Shown piece by piece: positions 2,109 through 28,906 of a DNA stretch of 36,726 bases; the first letter of the stretch is position 1, and each line of letters opens with the position of its first letter. Source of the DNA: Bacteroidota bacterium (GTDB lineage Bacteria > Verrucomicrobiota > Verrucomicrobiia > Methylacidiphilales > UBA1321); the NCBI GenBank assembly GCA_903970335.1, contig CAJCII010000089.1, positions 1 to 36,726 of the forward strand. The letters are read 5' to 3'. The notes under the pieces were generated by a model that worked only from the letters and a program-made list of their open reading frames with translations, made no database searches and was not told the DNA's origin. Both the position numbers and the translations under genes were made by a program.

Positions 2109-2729
2109 TCAGGGGACGACGTCGACGGGGGTGCCGACGGAGATGTTGGAGTAGAGGAGTTCGGCGAAGGCGTGGGGCAGGCGGATGCAGCCGTGGGAGG
2201 CGGGGTAGCCGGGGAGGTAGCCGGCGTGGAGGCCGACGCCGTCGTCGCGGATGCGGAGGTAGTAGGGCATGTCGGCGGAGTCGTAGACGGCGCCGGGCGG
2301 GGGTTTTTGGCCGACTTCGGCGTTGCCGTCGATGATGTAGCCGTTGGCGTCGAGGAAGACGCCGTAGAGGTTCGACTTGTGGTCGATGTCCTTGACGAGG
2401 ACGGTGTAGTGACCGGGAGGGGTGTCGTGGCCGGGTTTGCCGGTGGTGATGGGGCTGATACCGGCGACGCTGTCGCCCTGGTAGACGTAGACTTTTTGTT
2501 CGCCGAGGCGGACTTCGACGCGGGTGATGGGCTGGTTGGGGTCGGGTTTCCAGGTGTAGTCCCAGAGTTGGTAGCGGATGCGGTCGTCCTGGGTGTACTG
2601 GCGAACCATGACGCCCTTGGAGGAGAAGACTCCCTTGTGGGAGAAGCGGGAGGAGTCGTTGTTGTCCGCGCGCAGGGAGGGGGCCAAAGCCAGAAGGGCG
2701 AGGAGGGCGGCGAGGCGGAGGGGGTTCAT
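2109..2729 (-). CDS. Exported L,D-transpeptidase (YkuD domain)
   Basis: A protein of 206 residues with a signal peptide (about residues 1-21, MNPLRLAALLALLALAPSLRA). The YkuD domain covers about residues 68-205. The catalytic signature is clear: H168 (VGLHAGYLPGYPASHGCIRLP), H179 and the nucleophile C181 in SHGC-I-R-L. Earlier conserved elements such as KVYVYQGDSV and TTGKPGHDTPPGHYTV are also present. Such enzymes form 3-3 crosslinks in peptidoglycan or attach proteins to it, acting in the periplasm. It stands alone: upstream is a repeat-rich gap and downstream a convergent GIY-YIG gene. The start is the ATG directly before the signal peptide. Confidence 0.93.
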   Translation of the reverse strand: MNPLRLAALLALLALAPSLRADNNDSSRFSHKGVFSSKGVMVRQYTQDDRIRYQLWDYTWKPDPNQPITRVEVRLGEQKVYVYQGDSVAGISPITTGKPGHDTPPGHYTVLVKDIDHKSNLYGVFLDANGYIIDGNAEVGQKPPPGAVYDSADMPYYLRIRDDGVGLHAGYLPGYPASHGCIRLPHAFAELLYSNISVGTPVDVVP

Positions 2730-2945
2730 GGGTTGGGGGCGACTTCGATCAGGGGTTAGAAATTGCCAGCAGAGGGCAGAAGAATCCAGCAGAAACGGAG
2801 CGGGGGCGGCGGAGAGAATAGTCCCAACGGGAACAAGGCGGGGAGCTTTTTGGCGCCTTTTGCCTTCGCTCTCCTCTATGGGGACCTCTTTGATTCGGGT
2901 GATTTAGGGCCTGTTAAGGCAAAAAGGACGGGATGGCGCCAGTCG

Positions 2946-3028
2946 CAGGAGGGTCTGGAGCAAGGCGCGAACGAGGAACCGAGCGGTGGCTACGTGACGA
3001 GTGAGCAACGCGGCTTCGAACCCTCCTG
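2946..3028 (-). repeat. Hairpin repeat unit A
   Basis: This 83-bp unit has ends caggagggt and accctcctg, a 9-bp perfect inverted repeat. The interior, read on the minus strand, matches units B and C (GCGTTGCTC, then GTCACGTAG, then TCGCGCCTTGC). The stem sequence differs from those of B and C while remaining self-complementary. Confidence 0.6.
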
Positions 3029-3053
3029 TGCCTAGCCCGAAGGGTTGCCGTTC

Positions 3054-3132
3054 TTTGGGCCACAGACTTCGTTGCTCGTCGGTCACGTAGCTACGGCTAT
3101 GCTCCCTCCTCGCGCCTCGCCTGTGGCCCAAA
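3054..3132 (+). repeat. Hairpin repeat unit B
   Basis: This 79-bp unit has ends tttgggccacag and ctgtggcccaaa, a perfect 12-bp inverted repeat. The interior includes CGTTGCTCGTCGGTCACGTAG and TCGCGCCTCGC, which match units A and C. It faces unit A in opposite orientation inside the 271-bp element. Confidence 0.65.
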
Positions 3133-3380
3133 TCCCTGGCAACGCCACTCGCCCTTTTTACCTTAACAGGCCCTAGTGGAAGGCGTTGCGGGGAGTCGGT
3201 TGGAGGGTTGGCTTTTGAGATTTCCTGGCTTGCAGGTGGAAACAGGGTGAAGAGGAGCGAAAAGCCATCGGGATGATGGTCAGAGTCTGCCATGAGCGCC
3301 ACCTGCTTTTAACGCGTTAATTCATGCTTTAACGTGAGTTAGGAACCCAGCGGTAATAACCTGGACAATCTGGCTTGCCC

Positions 3381-3461
3381 TTTTGGTCGGAGGCTGCGTT
3401 GCTCGTCGGTGACAGACCGCTTCGGGTATGCGCCTTCGTCGCGCCTTGGCACCGACCAAAA
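3381..3461 (+). repeat. Hairpin repeat unit C (solo)
   Basis: This 81-bp unit has ends ttttggtcgg and ccgaccaaaa, a perfect 10-bp inverted repeat unrelated in sequence to the stems of A and B. The interior (GCGTTGCTCGTCGGTGACAG ... TCGCGCCTTGGC) is clearly related to both. It lies alone, without the 271-bp element's outer repeats. Confidence 0.65.
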
Positions 3462-3558
3462 AGCTGCGCCACAGGAGTAGATACCGATCAAGAATCTGGT
3501 GGAAGTTTGGGTCATAATTGCGGGCATAACAATATGCCGATACCACATTCGTTCCAAT

Positions 3559-3571
3559 GGGGTGAAGCCCC
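3559..3571. repeat. Short palindrome, variant of the TGGGGTG family
   Basis: GGGGTGAAGCCCC forms a 4-bp stem around TGAAG and resembles the more perfect palindromes at 4065, 14744, 16375 and 17519. It lies 39 bases before the small membrane protein gene at 3610. Confidence 0.4.
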
Positions 3572-3609
3572 TACTGGTAGTTATGTGCGCGAGGACTAAA
3601 ATCAGTATT

Positions 3610-3762
3610 ATGAATCTACTCGTGATTTTGGTTGTGTTGATGCTCTTGTTCGGTGGCGGCGGTTTTTATCTCGGCGGCCCATTGGTCGGCGGAGGTGGGT
3701 TCGGACTTATCTTGCTGATCTGTCTGATTCTGTTTTTTACCGGGAGCCTTGGTCGTCGATAA
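3610..3762 (+). CDS. Tiny hydrophobic membrane protein, DUF3309-like
   Basis: A protein of 50 residues beginning MNLLVILVVLMLLFGGGGFYLGG. It has two hydrophobic segments (about residues 2-14 and 31-45) separated by a glycine-rich linker (GGGGFYLGGPLVGGGGFG). This is the layout of the DUF3309 family of small membrane proteins, often found near stress genes. The start at 3610 gives exactly this architecture; an upstream in-frame Met at 3499 would add 37 residues drawn from the repeat region and is unlikely. It probably opens the accessory cluster that continues with the next small gene and rpiB. Molecular function is not known. Confidence 0.7.
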   Translation: MNLLVILVVLMLLFGGGGFYLGGPLVGGGGFGLILLICLILFFTGSLGRR

Positions 3763-28833: not shown

Positions 28834-28906
28834 GCCCATGTAGCTCAGTCGGTAGAGCACATCCTTGGTAAGGATGAGGTCACCGGTTCAAACCCGGTCA
28901 TGGGCT
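28834..28906 (+). tRNA. tRNA-Thr (anticodon GGT)
   Basis: A complete cloverleaf of 73 bases: acceptor GCCCATG/CATGGGC, D arm GCTC-GAGC, anticodon stem CATCC/GGATG with loop TTGGTAA (anticodon GGT, reading ACC/ACT), T arm ACCGG-TTCAAAC-CCGGT, discriminator T. CCA is not encoded. tRNA-Thr directly before tuf is a classic bacterial arrangement. Confidence 0.97.

Follow-up and report, generated by a model that had tools for sequence, protein, structure and literature searches.

A bacterial MITE family is usually defined by its ends, and its known range is normally a single genus or family. The RUP element of Streptococcus pneumoniae is about 107 bp long, has a TA target and TIRs like those of IS630-Spn1, and its mobilisation in trans has been inferred (PMC2229807); it differs from the elements described here in being confined to one species, in having no cross-phylum core and in that no conserved folded-strand module has been reported for it. 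The ERIC/IRU and Correia/NEMIS elements (about 100-160 bp) are TA-ended and their transcripts form long hairpins (PMC2229807). The ERIC and NEMIS hairpins act at the mRNA level, for ERIC in an orientation-dependent manner, and are the nearest functional precedents (PMC2229807). As described, these families are limited to particular lineages and defined by their ends, with no centre common to elements with unrelated ends. GTAG- and CGTC-tagged REPs and REPINs are palindromes of several phyla that occur as inverted pairs and carry an unpaired tag, and no transposase is known for the CGTC type (PMC3733652). The REPs are tagged palindromes of 20-40 bp, whereas long IS630-like TIRs and duplication of TA characterise the present elements.

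IS630 (Tc1/mariner) and ISAzo13 insertion sequences (ISs) share the TA/CTAG target with the present elements and resemble them in their TIRs, but they are autonomous and encode a transposase, and the core described below was not found in the intact ISs examined. The target of IS630-family elements is TA, which is duplicated on insertion (PMC2170065), and a preference of the family for CTAG is stated in the title of a work cited there. The TM-ECO and PIT intrastrand triplex repeats have another sequence (CCCTCNCCC..GGGNGAGGG), and no association with a transposase has been reported for them. In integron attC sites, R' and R'' sites of the form GTTRRRY/RYYYAAC flank a folded bottom strand; the core (GCGTTGCTC / GAGCAAC) does not fit this consensus. 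An earlier description of the core element was not found in open-access full text, either by sequence or by words. Rfam covariance models gave no match to the core even at E up to 1, and at gathering score they detected only tRNAs in the window (Table 1).

Three hairpin units in two elements

The window is a stretch of 36,726 nucleotides from a contig (C89) of a 2.88-Mb draft genome. The preliminary description had reported three hairpin units, A, B and C, with different self-complementary arms, and the positions and arms of all three were found in the sequence as described (Table 1). It had treated them as separate repeats, but A and B are the halves of a single TIR element, in which they form inverted hairpins that face outwards from a spacer of about 23 nt. 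The element that carries unit C starts with TAGGAACCCAGCGGTAATAACC and has a left TIR (TAGGAACCCAGCGGTAATAACCTGGACAA) that is the same as in full family 1 copies elsewhere in the genome (L003 and L047). Compared with such full copies it has no right TIR, its end being missing from about position 3473. A promoter scan of positions 2700-3650 gave nothing, and only weak terminator-like sites were seen.

Table 1. Features of the window (positions in window coordinates).
Feature	Position	Strand	Description
Element with units A and B	2905..3175		Complete two-hairpin, TA-flanked MITE of family 2, 271 bp; TA at 2905-2906 and 3174-3175; TIRs TAGGGCCTGTTAAGGcAAAAAGG/..ACCTTAACAGGCCCTA, 26-nt ends, 92% complementary (repeat search)
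Left TIR, family 2 element	2905..2930	+	Repeat search; genome copies
Hairpin unit A	2946..3028	-	Core 2961-3010, minus strand; covariance model R1, 48.5 bits, E 5e-10
Unit A arms	2946-2954 / 3020-3028		CAGGAGGGT / ACCCTCCTG
A-B linker	3029..3053	+	Contains CCCGAAGGG
Hairpin unit B	3054..3132	+	Core 3070-3120; covariance model R1, 83.3 bits, E 4e-20
Unit B arms	3054-3065 / 3121-3132		TTTGGGCCACAG / CTGTGGCCCAAA
Right TIR, family 2 element	3150..3175	-	Repeat search; genome copies
Element with unit C	3340..3472	+	Single-hairpin MITE of family 1, right-truncated
Hairpin unit C	3381..3461	+	Core 3397-3449; covariance model R1, 67.6 bits, E 1.5e-15
Unit C arms	3381-3390 / 3452-3461		TTTTGGTCGG / CCGACCAAAA
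tRNA-Thr(GGT)	28834-28906
tRNA-Trp(CCA)	30339-30413

Copies in the same genome and in other phyla

A covariance model (R1) was built from 73 core copies. Searching the window's genome with this model returned 16 core copies, far above chance, with E values down to 4e-20. The core elements of this genome have at least four different terminal repeats, namely TAAGGAACCCAGCGG in family 1, TAGGGCCTGTTAAGG in family 2, AGAGGCTGTCCGAA at two further loci (L279 and L280) and another one on contig C121. Short forms of 54-63 bp, which consist of the two ends only and miss the centre, occur in the same genome. The sequence of the short form on contig C169 looks like that of a full element with its interior deleted, and family 2 is present elsewhere in the genome both as further copies and as TIR-only short forms. 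On contig C96, an IS630-family IS (L278:1261-2536) with a transposase split into two ORFs and with ends TAGTACCATGTAACATTAG adjoins a 54-bp TIR-only form of family 2, and a CTAG is common to both.

Outside this genome the core was found across many phyla. The exact two-part 20-base core pattern occurs in at least 117 stretches of GTDB genomes, and the matches listed come from Pseudomonadota, Acidobacteriota, Planctomycetota, Verrucomicrobiota, Myxococcota, Omnitrophota, Elusimicrobia, Nitrospinota and Actinomycetota, among others. Copy numbers range from 1 to 78 per genome (25 core-bearing genomes). Of 145 genomes from the phylum of the window, 8 have the core; in Pseudomonas it is present in 77 of 150. 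The distribution is patchy, as expected of a mobile element. Among 72,556 plasmids the 52-nt core consensus had only two weak partial matches (E ~1), and no match was found among 50,697 phage records; carriage of the core on plasmids or phages was rejected. At 15 of 75 loci, belonging to several phyla, a second core lies head-to-head with the first and always in the same relative orientation, the spacing between the cores being 22-25 nt in nearly all of them and about 35 nt in one; the A-B element of the window is of this type. In some copies of genome G018 (L292:384-586 and L293:316-526) an extra palindrome of about 40 nt (CCCCAACGCGGCTGCCGCGTTGGGG) is inserted in one arm, which gives a 203-bp size class alongside a 163-bp class.

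Terminal repeats, target sites and transposases

Copies within a genome have long TIRs and are flanked by TA, commonly as CTAG. The one-hairpin type (about 165-175 bp, TA/CTAG ends) was seen at about 45 loci of many phyla, and the elements measure 160-290 bp. One Pseudomonas copy is missing from most of 60 congeners; at this locus the empty site GGC-TA-GGG corresponds to the filled site ..GATA / GGGTCTG...CAGACCC / TATGG.. (slashes at the junctions), in which TA is duplicated, and TA is found on both sides at many other loci. The elements are short, non-coding, multicopy and dispersed, with TIRs and with a TA duplication at a filled/empty site (one locus), as MITEs are, and they have the TA insertion with CTAG preference that marks MITEs derived from IS630 or ISAzo13.

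A closed genome (G021) contains IS630-type ISs of 1152 and 1202 bp with ends CTAGTGTGCTGTCCCGGAAATAC and CTAGTGTAGTGTCCTTAACAG, and the end CTAGTGTGCTGTCCCGGAAATAC is identical in 16-18 of 20 bases to core-element TIRs in Lysobacter (L066) and other genomes. The window's genome (G000) contains an intact ISAzo13-family IS (PF07592, E 6e-143), whose TIR has 16 of 20 bases in common with family 1. G021, G018 and G000 each have an IS630 that sits in the CTAG terminating a core element or a TIR-only short form. An autonomous IS with TIRs identical to those of the local MITE was not found, and for most families no identical partner turned up in the same genome; for the exact MITE TIRs of G021, G018 and G014, the lone matches examined were a mini-palindrome, decayed ends and contig edges. 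An IS630 DDE_3 match was lacking in 6 of 10 core-bearing genomes and an ISAzo13 match in 22 of 25, so that in many cases the cognate enzyme is missing, has been lost or belongs to a different family. ISAzo13 was rejected as the general partner: 2 of 25 genomes have a match above the cut-off, and the one intact copy in G017 is without matching TIRs. Based on the TIRs, the TA duplication, the CTAG sites and the similarity to IS630/ISAzo13 TIRs, the elements were filed as MITEs served by TA-targeting transposases, and the evidence points to transposases of the IS630/ISAzo13 type as the probable companion enzymes. In an unsystematic look, no linked IS200-like gene came up. The initial proposal that these repeats are the reverse of mobile repeats with conserved ends needs to be modified: between copies in one genome the TIRs are conserved, while across genomes and families they differ and the core is constant, as proposed.

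Covariation of the stems and the probable folding strand

Both halves of the core are invariant columns in the alignment, and the arms are variable. With the arms in register 65% of positions form Watson-Crick pairs, compared to 33% ± 1.3% after exchanging arms among the copies. Covariation of the stems is overwhelming: over the entire structure, pairs make up 72.9% of cells (47.4% ± 0.9% for shuffled data), with a covariation score of 0.549 versus 0.165. The inner stem covaries as well, with AT, TA, GC and CG pairs all present at one position. In Pseudomonas the arm segment adjacent to the core is fast-varying yet complementary (CTGTTGTGC/GCACAACAG, CTGTTGCGC/GCGCAACAG, CTGTTTTGC/GCAAAACAG and CTGTTATGC/GCATAACAG), and several of the mismatched intermediates have C.A on the plus strand, which is G.T on the minus strand. 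The preliminary description had argued from three units that the structure is conserved and not the sequence of the stem, and the covariation relative to shuffles, the inner stem and the compensatory pairs bear this out; the arms are complementary in the large cross-phylum set too. The possibility that the core is part of a degenerate coding gene was rejected, as only 15 of 66 usable copies lie inside a long ORF, most copies are intergenic and the inner stem covaries. Arm complementarity alone is no proof of selection for folding, because the outermost arms are TIRs, for which complementarity is expected with a transposase that acts on dsDNA; the complementarity of the outer arms is in part that of ordinary TIRs. 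The original step from complementary arms to a selected structure needs more than the outermost arms; what upholds it is the compensatory pairing, the inner stem and the mismatch asymmetry described below. In many elements (L084, L087 and L111 among them) the outer arms contain a second internal-loop motif, CGTCT opposite ATCCAT, which occurs in both orientations relative to the core and recalls the CGTC...ATCCA ends of CGTC-tagged REPs.

Isolated mismatches only were counted in a set of 98 elements, non-redundant at 20 of 50 arm positions. On the plus strand A.C outnumbers G.T (99 vs. 22) and T.C outnumbers G.A (58 vs. 17), and, counted by element, 57 lean in one direction and 10 in the opposite direction (sign p 4e-9). 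For the loci of the GTDB scan alone, among the matches listed, the ratios are 78:13 and 43:9. The asymmetry is greatest up to about 40 nt from the core and weakens in the terminal repeats. In minus-strand terms, the mismatches that are tolerated become G.T(U) and G.A, with A.C and C.T being rare. G.G and C.C mismatches are nearly balanced, a balance which simple helix stability does not predict. These mismatch statistics show that the strand with the G.T and G.A mismatches, and not its complement, is the core strand apparently kept foldable; a mutation bias that acts on one strand could produce part of the same pattern. Reading the depletion of G.T on the plus strand as an argument against RNA was dropped, since the mismatch analysis indicated a strand effect.

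The putative folding strand of the core, 5'-GCAAGGCGCGAGGAG...CGACGAGCAACG-3', can be read as a helix that contains two tandem G.A steps (GCGAGGAG/CGACGAGC), together with an apical stem-loop and, on its flanks, long stems. On the minus strand, GCGAGGAG and CGACGAGC are opposed as G-C, C-G, G.A, A.G, G-C, G.A, A.G, and G-C. The second tandem G.A step has changed to Watson-Crick pairs jointly in some lineages, for example to GGA/TCC in Pseudomonas (odds ratio 15, p 2e-8), which supports the pairing register of the core. DNA cruciforms, single-stranded DNA and RNA had all been considered initially as the form in which the structure is selected. Duplex ends alone, or a cruciform, are expected to give strand-symmetric mismatches; the observed asymmetry disfavours the cruciform and points to one specific strand that would fold, either as RNA or as single-stranded DNA.

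Proposed explanation and alternatives

We consider it likely that the elements are MITEs mobilised in trans, the enzymes being DDE transposases of the IS630 (Tc1/mariner)/ISAzo13 kind with TA as their target, and that each carries a conserved core which can fold on one strand. Such transposases would move short non-coding elements with either one hairpin or two head-to-head hairpins, whose loop-proximal core is near-invariant across phyla, and the TIRs would diverge along with their transposases while the core module stays constant. The folded strand is presumed to be a structure recognised by a protein while the element is single-stranded or transcribed, and we infer that a conserved factor may read it as RNA or ssDNA. 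Our first choice would be an RNA hairpin in read-through transcripts, which might make insertions tolerable to the host or might be bound by a widespread RNA-binding or RNA-processing factor; an ssDNA hairpin during replication would be the second choice. The strand of the core showed no bias relative to the orientation of neighbouring genes (24 vs. 31), giving no support for a cis-acting RNA. A more far-reaching proposal, which we hold only tentatively and think rather less probable than not, is that the core is an independent selfish folded-strand module (RNA/ssDNA), recognised by a factor that is conserved across bacteria and re-equipped with the TIRs of whichever TA-targeting transposase is available. 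The core would then be a modular passenger and not a decayed insertion sequence, and would have been carried across phyla for very long times.

Part of the evidence can be read in other ways. REP/REPIN-like elements, whose folded single strand is recognised by a RAYT-type Y1 (HUH) transposase and whose inverted pairs resemble the two-hairpin form, would account for the strand-specific folding, the fixed head-to-head pairs of hairpins and a distribution that is chromosomal rather than plasmid-borne, and the outer CGTCT/ATCCAT motif recalls the CGTC-tagged REPs, which are without a known transposase (PMC3733652). We nevertheless regard this as improbable, given TIRs that match the ends of IS630 and ISAzo13, a size of 160-290 bp compared to 20-40 bp for GTAG/CGTC REPs, and a TA duplication, although IS200/IS605-type insertion 3' of TA could mimic the latter. 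In these respects the elements depart from a REP, which is a GTAG/CGTC-tagged palindrome of 20-40 bp and has no target duplication.

It is well established that quasi-palindromes are corrected by template switching, and the elements could be ordinary MITEs, for which a palindromic shape is expected, with stems that covary only through this correction and a centre frozen by common descent. The process should correct mismatches in the core too, but these are invariant; it predicts no strand asymmetry, and the tandem mismatch changes to pairs jointly. The chance that template switching suffices, already weakened by these observations, appears slim. That a host factor binds the core as duplex or cruciform DNA, with the folding signal being incidental, would be in line with the near-invariant core sequence and with the IHF or methylation sites of other MITEs (PMC2229807). 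A duplex site needs no compensatory inner stem, however, and in a cruciform, with both strands exposed, mismatches should be symmetric, contrary to the asymmetry, making this the least credible alternative and a very improbable one.

Returning to the MITE reading, we rate the elements as a cross-phylum bacterial MITE superfamily that is defined by its centre rather than by its ends and whose conserved core is unexplained. One centre is common to differently-ended elements in at least eight phyla, and the sequence statistics suggest that one strand must fold. If this is true, a widely conserved cellular partner or process would read the tandem G.A hairpin, with an RNA-binding protein, a nuclease, or a step of replication or transposition as candidate partners. 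The elements would also represent a common class of intergenic structure, for which no annotation was found and which can be detected with one covariance model.

Two further repeats were observed. One, in the closed genome G021 (L288:1154-1188), is a palindrome some 35 bp long with TA on each side, which consists of little beyond both TIR ends of the local element family. During the search for empty sites in Pseudomonas, an unrelated repeat of about 80 nt (L107:6690-6771) surfaced, which is 87-92% identical between many dispersed copies in several Pseudomonas genomes.
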